Position numbers and translations under genes: made by a program. From NCBI GenBank assembly GCA_013298845.1, contig JAAFJN010000007.1, positions 96,245 through 160,244 of the forward strand: a stretch of DNA of 64,000 nt. Reading direction: 5' to 3'. This document shows, in pieces, positions 4,014-28,336 of this stretch. Below the pieces are notes generated by a model, which searched no databases, was not told the origin of the DNA, and was given only the letters and a program-made list of their open reading frames with translations. Position 1 is the first letter of the stretch, and each line of letters begins with the position of its first letter. Origin of the DNA: Chitinophagales bacterium. GTDB lineage: Bacteria; Bacteroidota; Bacteroidia; Chitinophagales; Saprospiraceae.

Positions 4014-4847
4014 TTACAGGTCGCCTATCTCCTCGACCGATAACCCAGTGAAATCAGAGATATCTTGATTAGGTAAGCCTTTTTGTTTCATTTTTCTTGC
4101 AACTTCTTCTTTTGCTTGTTTATCTGCCCTCTTTTCTGCCCTCTTTTCTGCCAATTCTATTTTGCCTCGTTCATCTTGTTCTCTCATTGCTGCATAGTCA
4201 TATGCATTTAATTCTTCTTTTTCCCAAGAATGCTTATTTGCATCGTGGTATGCCTCTTTCAAACCTTCATCGTCAACATTTTCAGGAATAACCGTTAGAT
4301 TCTCTGCTTCCTTGATGAAAAATATCCACTTGTCCGTAATTTCCGTCAGTTCCTTCAACGGCTTTACAAACTTCGGAAGTTCGATAAAATAAAAGTCCAT
4401 ATCCAGAATGGCTCGTTCACCATCCTCCACATCGCAAACCGCATGATGCGACAAATATTTTTCCCCGGAAGTAAATTTAAAGTCAAAAATCCCGATAAAA
4501 ATGACGGGTTTGAGTTCGGTATATTGTTCGCCGCTCTCTATTTGTTGGGAATACTCCTTGCTGGCGTAGTAAAGCAATCGTTTATCCAAGCCATCCGGCT
4601 CGGCTACCTGCATCTCAATGATGTAGGTTTTGCCTTTTTTGTCCTTCGCCTTTACGTCAATGATTGACGCTTTGAGATTTTTGATGATGGGGAGTTGGTA
4701 GGGGTTGAGGATTTCAACGTCCTCAATGACATCCTTTCCCTTTAACTTCATCACGGCATTGAGAAAGGAAATAAGGATGATTTTTTTGTTTTCATTGCCG
4801 AAAATTTTCCTAAAAGCGATATCATTTTTTATGTCTACAAACTGCAT
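4014..4847 (-). CDS. Rpn family recombination-promoting nuclease / PD-(D/E)XK putative transposase
   Basis: A protein of 277 residues. The N-terminal motif DIKNDIAFRKIFGNE is the hallmark of the Rpn/PDDEXK_2 family. The nuclease core is D64 in IIDVKAKD followed by the EMQ of YIIEMQV (E78, Q80), the D-x(n)-E-x-Q variant of PD-(D/E)XK. The C-terminus is a long charged helix (EKRAEKRADKQAKEE) and a short LPNQDISDFTGLSVEEI segment typical of these proteins. Relatives of RpnA cut DNA and raise RecA-independent recombination; cellular roles are unsettled. Base composition is visibly more AT-rich, and AAA/GAA/ATT codons more frequent, than in neighbouring genes, which suggests horizontal acquisition. 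No terminal inverted repeats or target duplications were seen, so it is a lone gene, not a recognisable IS. Confidence 0.88.
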   Translation of the reverse strand: MQFVDIKNDIAFRKIFGNENKKIILISFLNAVMKLKGKDVIEDVEILNPYQLPIIKNLKASIIDVKAKDKKGKTYIIEMQVAEPDGLDKRLLYYASKEYSQQIESGEQYTELKPVIFIGIFDFKFTSGEKYLSHHAVCDVEDGERAILDMDFYFIELPKFVKPLKELTEITDKWIFFIKEAENLTVIPENVDDEGLKEAYHDANKHSWEKEELNAYDYAAMREQDERGKIELAEKRAEKRADKQAKEEVARKMKQKGLPNQDISDFTGLSVEEIGDL

Positions 4848-6090: not shown

Positions 6091-6378
6091 ATGAAAGTTG
6101 CAAAAGTTTTTTTCGCGCTGATCTTCGGCGCAGTGTTTCTTATTACCCTTTTTAAAGTGTTGTTCTTTATGCTTTTCTTCGGGTTAATCTTTGGAGGCTG
6201 GATAATGGCCTTTAAATCAAGAAGTTATCGTTATCAGGCCGCTTATGCGCAACAACCGGCATCGCCGCAACCGTTTGCGCCCTGGAACCGCTACGAGGCT
6301 TCGGTTCAACCTTTAGATCCCAGTTGGAGTGCGTATAACACCCCAATTACGGCTTCAAGACGCATCGAGGTTCTGTAA
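6091..6378 (+). CDS. Small membrane protein upstream of Hsp20
   Basis: This is a 95-residue protein. The first 42 residues are almost entirely hydrophobic (KVFFALIFGAVFLITLF then VLFFMLFFGLIFGGWIM), giving one long or two tightly packed membrane segments. A basic SRSYRY follows, then a Pro/Gln/Ala-rich soluble tail. No known domain is recognised. The gene lies between the terminator at 6071 and the Hsp20 gene, 37 bases before the latter, so the two may be one operon and part of the same stress group as the ECF sigma gene. An alternative reading as a signal peptide is unlikely because the hydrophobic stretch is too long and lacks a cleavage site. Confidence 0.65.
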   Translation: MKVAKVFFALIFGAVFLITLFKVLFFMLFFGLIFGGWIMAFKSRSYRYQAAYAQQPASPQPFAPWNRYEASVQPLDPSWSAYNTPITASRRIEVL

Positions 6379-24543: not shown

Positions 24544-24825
24544 TTATCGGGGGCGAAGGCCCAAAGTGGTGTCTTGGCAATAAACAGCGGGGTGCATTTT
24601 GAGCGGCCAGCCCATCACCAGGTAAATTTCCAGCACATCTTCAATTTTGAGCAGGTGTTTTTTGGGAATACTAATGCTGTGTTCCCGCAAAAAGGTTCTT
24701 AAATCGCGTTCACTGATCCCGTATTCGCGGGCCAGGTCATCGCGGCGTTTCATACATACTAAATGAGCATACTCGGCCGGTACTTCTACGTTTCGGCCAT
24801 GAACAGGATAAATTATTGGTCGCAT
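24544..24825 (-). CDS. Small helix-turn-helix-like protein
   Basis: This is a 93-residue protein. A short beta-like N-terminus (MRPIIYPVHGRNVEVP) precedes RRDDLAREYGISERDLRTFLREHSI, which has the spacing of a helix-turn-helix (helix, ISE turn, helix), then a leucine-rich helix (LLKIEDVLEIYLVMGW). It may be a DNA-binding protein or a small adaptor; no family is recognised. It is the first plus or minus strand gene upstream of the S74-domain gene, 181 bases away. It lies next to the OMP remnant and small RNA region, which looks like a rearranged stretch. The ATG at 24825 is chosen; upstream in-frame codons give a Phe/Ile/Cys-rich extension of doubtful reality. Confidence 0.5.
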   Translation of the reverse strand: MRPIIYPVHGRNVEVPAEYAHLVCMKRRDDLAREYGISERDLRTFLREHSISIPKKHLLKIEDVLEIYLVMGWPLKMHPAVYCQDTTLGLRPR

Positions 24826-25032
24826 CGTTACTACATCGAATTTTGTGGATAATAAAATAATAGAGATAAAATGCACGGGATTAAAGCAAGTTTTGTGGAA
24901 GTACAATCAGGGAATAAAAAGAAAACGTCAAACAAATTTATGAAGAAAAATGTTTTGCAAAGATCGCAAAAATATTACAGTATAGTGCAAGATTGCTTTT
25001 TTATATTTTTAGGTGGTTTTTTAGCAGAATAA

Positions 25033-25067
25033 AAATGCCATTTCGAGGAGAACCCGAAATGGCATTT
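25033..25067 (-). terminator. Terminator of the truncated outer-membrane-protein gene
   Basis: A perfect 13-bp stem (25033-25045 with 25055-25067) closes a 9-base loop. On the minus strand the stem ends in TTT and runs into TTATTCT. It lies 19 bases after the stop of the OMP remnant, exactly where its terminator should be. Confidence 0.8.
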
Positions 25068-25086: not shown

Positions 25087-25161
25087 TTAAAACCGGCGAA
25101 CCAAACCCAGCGATACCTGGTTGGAAAAGCCCGAATTAAACAAAAAATTAGTGCTGTAAAG
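25087..25161 (-). pseudogene. 3' remnant of an outer-membrane beta-barrel gene
   Basis: The minus strand encodes a stretch ending SGFSNQVSLGLVRRF then TAA (stop at 25087-25089). A terminal phenylalanine preceded by alternating hydrophobic residues is the beta-barrel signal read by BamA, as in the last strand of OmpA-like or TonB-dependent barrels. The frame degenerates immediately upstream, where the first small RNA terminator begins, and no start codon or barrel precedes it. The rest of the gene has been lost or replaced. Only about 24 residues survive, so the family cannot be named. Confidence 0.6.
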
Positions 25162-25280
25162 AAAAAAACAGGCTCTGCCTAACTTACGTCGGGCAGCGCC
25201 TCATATCAATCTTCCTACCGTGTTTTAAATTTTTATTTGGAAGTACCCGGAGGTACCAGAAATGGCGTAACTATTTTACC
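25162..25280 (-). ncRNA. Small RNA candidate, tandem copy 1
   Basis: A short minus-strand transcript is predicted from the promoter at 25284-25316 to a terminator at about 25162-25200. Near the 5' side there is a small hairpin with stem GTACC/GGTAC and a UCCG tetraloop. The 3' module is the block ACGGTAGGAAGATTGAT (25205-25221) then a terminator stem CTGCC/GGCAG with a further GGC/GCC outer helix, loop CGACGTAAGTTA, and seven T residues. No open reading frame of note is present. The 3' module recurs in the next copy with changed stem but constant loop. It could belong to a known Bacteroidota RNA family, which an Rfam search would decide. Confidence 0.72.
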
Positions 25281-25283
25281 CGG

Positions 25284-25316
25284 CAAAGGTAAAATTTTTT
25301 ACATAGATATAACAAA
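25284..25316 (-). promoter_or_regulatory. Promoter of small RNA copy 1
   Basis: On the minus strand TTTG (25313-25316) and TACCTTTG (25284-25291) are separated by exactly 21 bases, a consensus Bacteroidota promoter. No coding sequence lies downstream before the terminator. Confidence 0.75.
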
Positions 25317-25380
25317 TGGGGAATCATTTTTTTTGGAGACCCGATTGCCGCTAAAAATGGGCATTTATGGGCAATAAAAT

Positions 25381-25485
25381 AAAAAAGCCGCCGAACTTAC
25401 GTCGGGCGGCCCATGAAAAATCAATCTTCCTACCGTAATTTTTTTCAAATTACATTGTAATTCTAATTCTCCTGTGTGTAATTCA
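25381..25485 (-). ncRNA. Small RNA candidate, tandem copy 2
   Basis: This transcript of about 105 bases is predicted between the promoter at 25489-25521 and the T-run at 25381-25386. The 5' part contains ACACACAGGAGAATTA, a ribosome-binding-site-like block shared with the candidate at 57 kb, followed by an ATG that is closed at once by TAA. The 3' module is ACGGTAGGAAGATTGAT (25420-25436), then a terminator with stem GCCGCC/GGCGGC (25405-25410 with 25387-25392), loop CGACGTAAGTTC and six T residues. Every stem position that differs from copy 1 is changed on both sides, which is direct evidence for RNA structure. Confidence 0.75.
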
Positions 25486-25488
25486 ATG

Positions 25489-25521
25489 CAAAGTTAAGCA
25501 TTTCCTTTTTTCACCAGCAAA
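25489..25521 (-). promoter_or_regulatory. Promoter of small RNA copy 2
   Basis: TTTG (25518-25521) and TAACTTTG (25489-25496), read on the minus strand, are separated by 21 bases. The arrangement is the same as at copy 1. Confidence 0.78.
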
Positions 25522-25559: not shown

Positions 25560-27092
25560 CTAAAAGTCGAACTTGATACCCTGCGCTAAGGGTACTGATT
25601 CTGAATAGTTTATGGTGTTTGTCTGGCGTCTCATATACGCTTTCCAAGAGTCAGATCCTGACTCCCGACCACCGCCAGTTTCTTTTTCGCCACCAAATGC
25701 ACCGCCAATTTCGGCACCGGAGGTACCAATGTTTACGTTGGCAATACCACAATCAGAACCGGCCACCGACAAGAAACGCTCGGCTTCGCGCAGGTTTCCG
25801 GTCATAATCGCCGACGATAACCCCTGAGGAACGCCGTTTTGCATGGCAATGGCTTCTTCGATGGTATCGTATTTCATAATGTACAAAATAGGCGCAAACG
25901 TTTCGTGTTGCACAATGTCCCAACTGTTTTGGGCTTCGGCAACGCAGGGTTTAACGTAGCAGCCGCTTTCGTAACCCGGGCCTTCCAGTACACCACCATC
26001 CACGACCATTGTACCGCCCGCTTTTTTTACGGCTTCGATGGCGTTGAGGTAGTTTTGCACGGCACCTTTATCTATCAATGGGCCTACGTGGTTGTTGGCA
26101 TCCAATGGATCCCCGATGCGCAATTGTTTGTACGCACCGGCAAGGGCGTTTTTCACGTCGTTGTACATGCTGGAGTGCACAATCAGGCGGCGTGTGGTAG
26201 TGCAGCGTTGTCCGGCGGTACCCACGGCCCCGAATACGGCTCCGGTCAGTACAATTTTCAAATCTGCCGATGGTGTCACGATAATGGCGTTGTTGCCACC
26301 CAATTCCAGCAACGACCGTCCGAGGCGTTCGGCGACGGTTTTGCCCACGGTTTTGCCCATGCGGGTGCTACCGGTGGCACTTACCAACGGCACGCGGCCG
26401 TCTTTGGTCATCATTTCGCCCACTTTGTAGTCGCCGTTGATGATGCAGGAAATGCCTTCGGGCAGGTTATTGGCTTTTAATACTTTTTGGAACAACAACT
26501 GGCAGGCAATGGAGCACAGCGGTGTTTTTTCCGATGCTTTCCATACGCACACGTCGCCGCATACCCACGCGATGCAGGCATTCCAGGACCAAACGGCCAC
26601 CGGGAAGTTAAACGCCGAAATGATGCCCACGATACCCAGCGGGTGCCACTGTTCGTACATGCGGTGAGCGGGACGCTCCGAGTGCATGGTGAGGCCGTAT
26701 AACTGGCGGGAAAGTCCCACGGCGAAATCGCAGATGTCAATCATTTCCTGGACTTCACCGTAGCCTTCTTGCAGGCTTTTACCCATTTCGTAACTCACCA
26801 AACGGCCGAGTGGGTCTTTGTATTGGCGGAGTACATCGCCGTATTGGCGTACAATTTCGCCGCGTTTGGGGGCGGGCATATCGCGCCAAACCTTAAAAGC
26901 CTCCTGCGCGCAGGTGATAACTTGTTCGTATTGGTCGCGGGTAGTGGTGGTTACCGAGCCAATGAGTTGGCCATCTACCGGTGAATAACTTTGGATGGAG
27001 CGGGCACTGCCCGTGAGGCTTTGTTGGCCCGTCCAGGTACCTGCATTTTTGGCTTTGAGGCCCAATTTGCGGAGAAACTCTTTTGGTTGCAC
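25560..27092 (-). CDS. ALDH7-like aldehyde dehydrogenase (L-aminoadipate-semialdehyde dehydrogenase type)
   Basis: A protein of 510 residues, normal for the family. Motifs run in order: FNFPVAVWSWN with CIAWVCGDVCVWKASEKTPL (NAD-binding), SATGSTRMGKTV, the general base E263 in LLELGGNNA and the nucleophile C297 in GTAGQRCTTTRRL, then ETFAPILY near the C-terminus. The sequence around these follows ALDH7A1/antiquitin rather than ALDH2 types, so oxidation of alpha-aminoadipate semialdehyde in lysine degradation, or betaine/other aldehydes, is the likely role. The start is a GTG at 27092 before QPKEFLRKLG; codons further upstream give a low-complexity frame. It is a single-gene unit with a TACCTTTG promoter element upstream and the two small RNA genes just downstream. 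Confidence 0.9.
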   Translation of the reverse strand: MQPKEFLRKLGLKAKNAGTWTGQQSLTGSARSIQSYSPVDGQLIGSVTTTTRDQYEQVITCAQEAFKVWRDMPAPKRGEIVRQYGDVLRQYKDPLGRLVSYEMGKSLQEGYGEVQEMIDICDFAVGLSRQLYGLTMHSERPAHRMYEQWHPLGIVGIISAFNFPVAVWSWNACIAWVCGDVCVWKASEKTPLCSIACQLLFQKVLKANNLPEGISCIINGDYKVGEMMTKDGRVPLVSATGSTRMGKTVGKTVAERLGRSLLELGGNNAIIVTPSADLKIVLTGAVFGAVGTAGQRCTTTRRLIVHSSMYNDVKNALAGAYKQLRIGDPLDANNHVGPLIDKGAVQNYLNAIEAVKKAGGTMVVDGGVLEGPGYESGCYVKPCVAEAQNSWDIVQHETFAPILYIMKYDTIEEAIAMQNGVPQGLSSAIMTGNLREAERFLSVAGSDCGIANVNIGTSGAEIGGAFGGEKETGGGRESGSDSWKAYMRRQTNTINYSESVPLAQGIKFDF

Positions 27093-27126
27093 TGTAAAAT
27101 ATAAGTTAGGTTCGAAAAATGAGGCG

Positions 27127-27134
27127 CAAAGGTA
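27127..27134 (-). promoter_or_regulatory. Probable -7 element of the ALDH gene
   Basis: Minus-strand TACCTTTG followed by CGCC lies 35 bases upstream of the GTG start. The -33 TTTG is not at the ideal distance, so confidence is moderate. Confidence 0.5.
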
Positions 27135-27160
27135 GTGAAATTTGGCCGCAAATCGGCAAT

Positions 27161-28336
27161 TTAAAGTTTGTACCCGTAACTCAGCGCGATACTGGGCATT
27201 TCGGGGAACGTGGTTTCCAAACGAATAAAACTGCGATTTTTGAAAAAATACTGCACGCCTGCGCTCGCGGTAGCCCGCGCCACCCACTCGTTTTGATCCT
27301 CGAAAAAACCCAGTTTTCGCAATTTGGTCACGCTCATCCCAAGGCTAACATGAGGGGTCAGGCGTTTTTCGGGCAACAACAATATGTTGAAACGCCCCCT
27401 TATTTCGGTAAAATTGCTCTTGTACCGCTCCGTGGGAACGTAAAAAGGTCGCCGCCCCTGCACCAAATAATATTCGTGGCTAAACCGTTTGCTGGCGAAA
27501 TAATTGCTAAAATTAACGCCCACAAGAACAGCCGATACCGCGCCATAGGTATTCAACGGTGAAAAAGAGGATTCGTCCTGCTCGTTGTACCGCACTCCGG
27601 CGTACATACCACCCGCTACGATGGTCAATCGTCGTTTTTTACGTTGTACAGTTGCCGAGGGCTGGGGAGTAACGCCGCAACTATTATTGTATTTGCGCAC
27701 CAACCCGGCAATAACCCGTTCATCCAGTTCGGGCACGGTTGTCAGGCGGGCCTTTGGGCAATCCACAAACATGGTTTGCAGGGTGGCGTAATAAAATCGT
27801 TTAAAGGCGTATTCGCCCTCCAACAACCGGGGTAGGTGCGTTACCGTGTCTGATTGGATAATTTTACCGCTGTTTTTGTCGCTTAATGTGTTGATAACTA
27901 AGGTTAATTGTTCGAGGGGACTGCCATTTTTAGAGACGTACAAAGCGTAGTTAATTTCGGAGTTCTCCAATTTGTACAGTTGAACGGTGCCGTTTTCCAG
28001 CAGGCGCAAAAAACGCGTTTCGTATATTTTGGGTACGCCTTTAATGCCGCTGGGAGCGTTGTAATATTGTACGGCCTCCGAGCGGAAATGGGGGCCGGTA
28101 TCAAACCCAAATCCTTTGAGTTGGGTGGGTTGCAGTTCTTGGGCCGCGTCGGTTTTTTCCGGCGTTTTAATCGTTATTGCCCGCGAAAGTTGCTCATAAG
28201 CGGCATCCAGGATATAACCTTTGGTGGTATCGCCGCTGTTATTGACGACGTATCCGGGCGAAAAAATTTGTTGGGCATTTATTCCAATAATCCCGCTCCA
28301 TAAGAAAAGCAGGACGAGAAGTGCTTTGTTGTGCAT
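27161..28336 (-). CDS. Secreted/outer-membrane protein, tandem paralogue B
   Basis: A protein of 391 residues with a signal peptide (MHNKALLVLLFLWSGIIGIN, cleavage near AQQ). The mature N-terminus starts QIFSPGYVVNNSGDT.KGYILDAAYE, a region shared almost word for word with the next upstream gene. A middle domain (FLRLLENGTVQLYKLENSEINYALYVSKNGSPLEQL) is likewise conserved. The C-terminal third alternates polar and hydrophobic residues and ends in SIALSYGYKL, as in outer-membrane beta-barrels. No enzymatic motif is seen. It starts 16 bases after the paralogue, so the two are one operon produced by duplication. Known relatives are uncharacterised Bacteroidota proteins, often described as outer-membrane beta-barrel proteins. 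Confidence 0.75.
   Translation of the reverse strand: MHNKALLVLLFLWSGIIGINAQQIFSPGYVVNNSGDTTKGYILDAAYEQLSRAITIKTPEKTDAAQELQPTQLKGFGFDTGPHFRSEAVQYYNAPSGIKGVPKIYETRFLRLLENGTVQLYKLENSEINYALYVSKNGSPLEQLTLVINTLSDKNSGKIIQSDTVTHLPRLLEGEYAFKRFYYATLQTMFVDCPKARLTTVPELDERVIAGLVRKYNNSCGVTPQPSATVQRKKRRLTIVAGGMYAGVRYNEQDESSFSPLNTYGAVSAVLVGVNFSNYFASKRFSHEYYLVQGRRPFYVPTERYKSNFTEIRGRFNILLLPEKRLTPHVSLGMSVTKLRKLGFFEDQNEWVARATASAGVQYFFKNRSFIRLETTFPEMPSIALSYGYKL

Follow-up and report, generated by a model that had tools for sequence, protein, structure and literature searches.

The 64,000-nucleotide stretch of DNA analyzed here (the window) carries two tandem units on its minus strand, flanked by an aldehyde dehydrogenase gene (25560–27287) and a short open reading frame (24544–24906) without a Pfam match. 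Direct reading bore out the anatomy that an earlier, sequence-only reading had described: firstly, both units have the arrangement TTTG-N21-TAnnTTTG; secondly, no open reading frame of 60 amino acids or more overlaps either of them; thirdly, the block ACGGTAGGAAGATTGAT is identical in both and is followed by a hairpin and T's; and fourthly, the terminator stems differ with compensating changes (GCCGCC/GGCGGC in copy 1, CTGCC/GGCAG in copy 2). The features of the locus are as follows:

25560–27287, minus strand: upstream neighbor, aldehyde dehydrogenase gene (Pfam PF00171; tblastn), synteny anchor with genomes G003 and G036
25489–25521, minus strand: promoter of copy 1, TTTG (from 25521), 21 nt and TAACTTTG (25496–25489), of the housekeeping Bacteroidetes type (direct reading; TAnnTTTG also found by script)
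25447–25463, minus strand: predicted 5′ hairpin of copy 1, GAATTAC-aat-GTAATTT, not conserved in sequence and weak (z only -0.28)
25411–25437, minus strand: single-stranded core and linker of copy 1, TACGGTAGGAAGATTGATTTTTCATGG (reading, family alignment, synteny)
25381–25410, minus strand: terminator of copy 1, GCCGCC / C.C mismatch / GAC-GUAA-GUU / GGCGGC and T-run (reading, folding, covariation)
25284–25316, minus strand: promoter of copy 2, TTTG (from 25316), 21 nt and TACCTTTG (25291–25284) (direct reading; script)
25242–25257, minus strand: predicted 5′ hairpin of copy 2, GGTACC-tccg-GGTACT, weak (folding; z -0.69)
25201–25222, minus strand: single-stranded core of copy 2, CACGGTAGGAAGATTGATATGA (reading, family alignment, synteny)
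25162–25200, minus strand: terminator of copy 2, GGC g CTGCC / C.A mismatch / GAC-GUAA-GUU / GGCAG a GCC and T-run (reading, folding, covariation)

The recurrence of ACGGTAGGAAGATTGAT is not expected by chance: the block occurs exactly twice in the window, both times on the minus strand (25436–25420 and 25221–25205), and still twice with up to three mismatches allowed, compared to an average of 0.07 in shuffled sequences, one of 100 of which reaches two. The promoter boxes would place the RNA starts at ~25482 and ~25277 (minus strand), and each unit, having a housekeeping promoter and an intrinsic terminator to itself, would give rise to a non-coding RNA of ~100–115 nt. Elsewhere in the window, the minus strand of 25087–25140 reads FNSGFSNQVSLGLVRRF up to a stop codon, in our reading a remnant resembling the end of an outer-membrane barrel protein, and a strong 15-pair hairpin follows it at 25033–25067.

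The terminator hairpin and the single-stranded core

The sequence-only reading had proposed that the terminator loop is invariant and may pair with a target. The 11-mer CGACGTAAGTT is indeed the same in both units, but it folds, and is therefore not an open loop: beyond one mismatch, both window hairpins form a 3-bp stem (GAC/GUU) closing a GUAA tetraloop. The exact 11-mer occurs three times in the 6.37-Mb genome, twice within the window pair, and with one mismatch allowed its occurrence in the window lies within chance (shuffle mean 1.04; 26 of 100 shuffles reach two). Nor is the cap shared by a third copy in the same genome (G000:C12:96296), which lies between a gene for a histidine kinase and a convergently oriented mqo gene and has a GAAA cap, U-A pairs replacing the mismatch, and a core with one change. 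These replacements indicate that the hairpin is kept as a structure with a GNRA-type cap, and that the loop is not invariant in the family. Family members differ in the cap (GUAA, GAAA or GCAA), whereas their most constant part is the single-stranded block before the hairpin; the loop thus finds no support as an invariant contact site, and target contact through loop pairing is disfavored. Although core and hairpin are equally constant behind the aldehyde dehydrogenase gene, comparison of the members points to the single-stranded core as the likelier contact site. Terminators capped by GNRA loops are common; a simple terminator scan missed copy 1 and gave copy 2 a different, shorter stem, probably because of the stem mismatch.

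The proposal that the pair displays selected RNA structure was supported by covariation of the homologous stems in 19 aligned members (alignment A3). Of the 190 cells of the ten-pair stem, 93.7% are paired, a percentage that is favored by counting the RNAalifold consensus of the alignment itself, as compared to 45.8% at most when the strands are slid against each other. Changes on both sides affect 24 cells, which are not independent events, the 19 rows including near-identical relatives, compared to 7.3 in shuffles (none of 500 as high), and the consensus has compensatory changes in six of the ten stem pairs. Two further measures are less decisive: the number of pairs with changes on both sides (6 versus 3.5 in shuffles, reached by 8 of 500) and of further pair types (14 versus 11.4; 27 of 500). 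Most of 38 members selected by script (L037 is doubtful) are predicted to form a further hairpin 5′ of the core, with sequences that are unrelated to each other; its z-score averages -1.17 over these members (median -1.45), the window copies standing at -0.28 and -0.69.

Family members, promoters and genomic context

The suggestion of a small RNA family, with tandem copies and structure under selection, was likewise supported by sequence comparison, in which two covariance models, R1 and R2, were used in turn. R1, built from three copies of the window's own genome (G000; the window pair and the copy on contig C12) and searched against 60 relatives, gave strong matches, five of them in G003. 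R2, built from 19 members (alignment A3), matched 36 of 42 genus genomes at E<=0.001 and 35 of 42 at E<=1e-6, 15 of the 42 having themselves supplied rows of the model. The window's genome holds six copies at E<=1e-6 (the window pair, one each on C12 and C34, and a pair on C40), four of the six lying in two tandem pairs, and tandem arrays are present in G000, G003, G014, G020, G026 and G064. Family units also form tandem triplets at G003:C195:9895–10632, G003:C422:17–322 and G000:C40:3219–3607, the third unit on C40 being degenerate. The two units in the window would be paralogous members of a family of small RNAs that has multiple copies within one Saprospiraceae genus.

R2 recognized 11 of 298 genomes in a sample of the order, seven of them genus members including the window's own, and 4 of 395 in a sample of the phylum, one of them the window's own; both searches used stricter filters with only 13–17 candidates scored per genome, which makes this distribution a lower bound. 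Two genomes from other genera of the same bacterial family, G246 and G253, carry the core; weak matches in G102, G197, G420, G547 and G620 (other families) lack it by eye and were not counted. An exact pattern scan of 84,980 species returned 36 stretches, 17 of which are family members as judged by eye, with titles naming Saprospiraceae, Saprospirales, Chitinophagales or uncultured Bacteroidetes MAGs; the other 19 were judged by eye to be chance matches in coding DNA. The core reads ACGGTAGGAAGATTG in the window sub-type and AGGAAGATTGTTTTCATTTGGTTTTTTGGGG in the genus type. Four genus genomes also have what may be another kind of small RNA, in which AGTAGTTTAAAGGTTAGGAA...ACTA precedes a hairpin containing GACGYAAGTT, near position 1501 of L021, L023 and L024 (plus strand) and of L036 (minus strand).

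We compared the promoters of 40 members chosen by script, two of which (L134 and the phage contig L298) lie outside the genus. An ECF-type motif, TGTGAC-N13-18-CGTATAA with up to two mismatches, is found within 156 nt upstream in 22 of the 40 (0.25 expected from shuffles) and is exact in 12 of these 22. TAnnTTTG is found in six, little in excess of the 2.95 expected: both window copies, C12, C34, L078 and L134, the last of which has the ECF-type motif as well; its placement is alike in these, 61–71 nt before the point 4 nt upstream of AGGAAG. In ten genomes, the exact TGTGAC motif has 10 matches versus one for a reversed control, six of them at family members. TGTGAC-N15-CGTATAA also precedes short non-coding stretches that end in a hairpin and T-run (L293:1501, L294:1501) and, in the window's own genome, a hairpin without T-run (L286:1501; G000:C23:35802); the remaining exact site (L289) lies before one small protein, which from its sequence we take to be of the LysM type. 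Such sites perhaps mark a wider small RNA regulon. In the account given in PMC9723704, such a factor as an ECF sigma factor is read from a CGT box at -10, and many relatives are therefore probably under the control of such a factor; from its promoter boxes, the window lineage appears to use the housekeeping factor.

G003 and G036 have an RNA gene at the equivalent place behind the aldehyde dehydrogenase gene, which matches theirs by tblastn at 91% (amino acids, G003) and 95% (over 96 amino acids, G036). The core and terminator, from AAATTACGG to the first six T's, are identical in G000, G003 and G036, which represent three species, as is the copy 1 promoter CTTAACTTTGCA across the three syntenic loci; most of the spacer otherwise fails to align well. 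Between G000 and G003, the aldehyde dehydrogenase gene has 80.8% DNA identity, and the RNA blocks have 96.2% (79 nt) and 94.6% (74 nt). Copy 2 is conserved in G003, and the aligned piece of G036 ends before it. Elsewhere in the family, in our reading, a divergent upstream gene is common to fourteen loci, that on C34 included (..NRY..GWLG proteins, three of them partly called), and the convergent gene in nine loci is presumably a D-aminoacyl-tRNA deacylase, recognized by its motifs. These shared neighbors indicate that the loci mostly represent one ancestral place and are not independent.

Relatives in viral contigs

The 26-nt genus-type core GATTGTTTTCATTTGGTTTTTTGGGG is present, exactly, in 11 IMG/VR contigs, and the shorter AGATTGTTTTCATTTGGTTTT in 14, these being the same 11 and L314–L316. 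A hairpin lies behind the core in all 11 (without a T-run in L308–L311), and R2 matches at the core with E<=3e-5 in each of the 11, the loci being given whole, as well as in L314 and L315, and weakly in L316; the loci having been picked by their core, these scores are not independent proof. The core is thus carried by five viral contig groups that have a terminase, tape measure, capsid or integrase: we found a terminase in L298 and L305, large and small terminase and HNH in L311, HNH in L309, a tape measure in L304, a capsid in L306, an integrase in L314 and a Clp-type protease in L312. L307, L312 and L313 have the same copy, and L308–L311 related ones; the copy in L298 lies at 6241–6315, and the core in L314 begins two bases past the end of a tRNA-Met gene (4157–4230). 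A second, partial core is found at L309:9785–9848, and the terminase-bearing contig L298 also encodes a caspase-domain protein (PF00656; 9109–9951).

Queried with a 63-nt phage piece, 50,697 named phage records gave no match. The window sub-type was not recognized in viral contigs, where five matches to its core lack a terminator and seem to be coincidental similarities within coding sequence; several weak R2 matches to phage contigs (L309:1835 and L311:7667 among them) are hairpins without the core and were not counted. An attachment site as the cause of the phage copies is thought unlikely, the phage and chromosomal terminators being different. It is possible, though we would stop short of calling it probable, that several unrelated phages captured the host RNA core and use it to take over the core's host partner during infection.

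Candidate mode of action and relation to known systems

In sequence, the window pair has several features of trans-acting base-pairing small RNAs: a promoter of its own for each unit, no open reading frame, an intrinsic terminator and an intergenic location. The predicted RNA would begin with a variable 5′ part, often a hairpin, and continue with the fixed single-stranded core and a terminator hairpin, in most cases GNRA-capped. The core keeps its sequence where the 5′ part and the terminator drift in theirs; it is therefore probably a point of contact, and the usual mode of contact for small RNAs is base pairing. Pairing by a short seed is our first choice and a protein site our second. We consider it probable that the pair are independently transcribed small RNA genes of a multicopy family, the core of which would most likely be trans-acting, a short seed that pairs with several messenger RNAs as that of the FopS RNAs does.

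A rather less probable alternative is that the core is a protein-binding site, in which case the RNA would serve as a sponge or scaffold instead of regulating by antisense pairing. The length and constancy of the genus-type core (~26–31 nt, little varied, with 26 nt exact in the 11 viral contigs) suit such a site, as do our target searches, which speak against a simple form of pairing. When the complement of the 21-nt core was sought in 42 genomes with G-U pairs allowed, 59 of the 62 matches were family loci, each within an R2 match, and three lay outside the family, as compared to six for a reversed control; no long antisense target is thus seen in these genomes. In 976 start regions of the window's genome (1.66 Mb, 26% of the genome, with rough gene calls), none of six cores clearly beats its shuffles, some do worse, and for several the coding controls pair rather better than the starts, as measured by an ungapped nearest-neighbor score with 60 shuffles per core, the absolute energies of which are too strong and serve for comparisons only. 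Ranking candidate starts for the window cores (without a control) gave none that stands out. As to a chaperone, searches of five genomes detected Hfq in none and RRM_1 (PF00076) in two, G000 not being one of the two. Against a protein site, the other strand of the genus-type core resembles a strong translation start, a likeness for which such a site has no need.

RybB and MicA are models for silencing under envelope stress, and the same likeness suggests that the genus-type core could mimic the antisense of secreted-protein mRNA starts and silence them under such stress. The complement of this core, AAACCCCAAAAAACCAAATGAAAACAATCTTC, has a start score above that of 99.65% of 8759 sampled non-start ATGs and of 84% of 992 starts, the profile having been built from those same starts; among 20 hand-picked near matches, 15 open a frame of at least 60 amino acids with MKTIF-like starts, and the ECF-type promoter motif also speaks for this reading. 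The 976 start regions, however, have no excess of complementarity over shuffled cores; no recurrent target is seen; ATGAAAA is a common start, so that the near matches prove little and are partly what common start codons give anyway; copy 1 of the window has no start-like complement (score -1.36); and the resemblance was noticed before testing. We consider this mimicry unlikely.

Two further explanations would dispense with a trans-acting RNA altogether. The units could be ordinary terminators of chance similarity with no RNA gene before them, GNRA-capped terminators being common and the RNA genes here being predictions; the identity of the core, the conservation of the promoter, the synteny and the covariation all oppose this, and make it very improbable. 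Weaker still, and largely refuted, is a role in cis, as leader or attenuator for the gene downstream, which is on the same strand in the window and in 7 of 29 loci (8 with L053 corrected for a same-strand open reading frame behind copy 2): each of the tandem units ends in a terminator of its own, and 22 of the 29 loci as called (21 after the correction), many of them orthologous, have a convergent next gene, so that the family in general is not a leader.

A seed that pairs in trans thus remains our preferred reading of the core, and the analysis yields a defined, searchable RNA family (R2) in Saprospiraceae, outside the Rfam families searched. It is one family with two promoter types and phage-borne relatives, and it offers concrete genes and a core for experiment in a genus without Hfq in the five genomes searched. 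To our knowledge, most of what has been learned about regulation by small RNAs in Bacteroidota comes from Bacteroides and a few flavobacteria; in the library searched, no paper joined Saprospiraceae with small RNA and sRNA, and none was listed naming Saprospiraceae in its title or the start of its abstract.

The sequence-only reading had left undecided whether the pair belongs to an existing family such as Flavo-1. The comparison that it called for gave no match at gathering score to any of 4227 Rfam families, in the window or in 14 loci with relatives, and relaxed scans gave sub-threshold matches only (over copy 1, the PyrG leader at 23.3 of 65 bits). Flavo-1 (RF01705), a Bacteroidetes RNA motif judged not to be cis-regulatory in the description of PMC2864571, accordingly differs from the family, matching neither the window nor the 14 loci at the Rfam threshold. 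Rfp11 and Rfp18 of Flavobacterium psychrophilum, which we compared by description, are Bacteroidetes small RNAs conserved in other species (PMC9723704), and Rfp11 is listed there under CGT-box promoters, attributed by the authors to ECF sigma factors; they differ in belonging to another bacterial family and in that the part of that paper available to us describes no multicopy arrangement. GibS of Bacteroides thetaiotaomicron, likewise compared by description, pairs with translation initiation regions and has two seeds, R1 and R2 (PMC11697453; names unrelated to our models).

Nearest in kind are the FopS RNAs, 14 paralogous small RNAs of Bacteroides thetaiotaomicron, which we compared by their description in PMC11697453 and not by sequence. 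As portrayed there, they differ from the present family in four respects: firstly, the 5′ end of FopS is single-stranded, whereas a 5′ hairpin is predicted here in most members; secondly, FopS associates with the RRM protein RbpB, whereas the window's genome has no RRM_1 match; thirdly, FopS promoters are of the housekeeping type, whereas the ECF-type motif is found in 22 of 40 members here; and fourthly, the present family is without a match in Rfam. Like FopS, the family consists of multicopy paralogues in the same phylum with a conserved single-stranded stretch before the terminator hairpin; the window pair shares its housekeeping promoters; and a link to phages is suggested by the FopS authors as well (PMC11697453).
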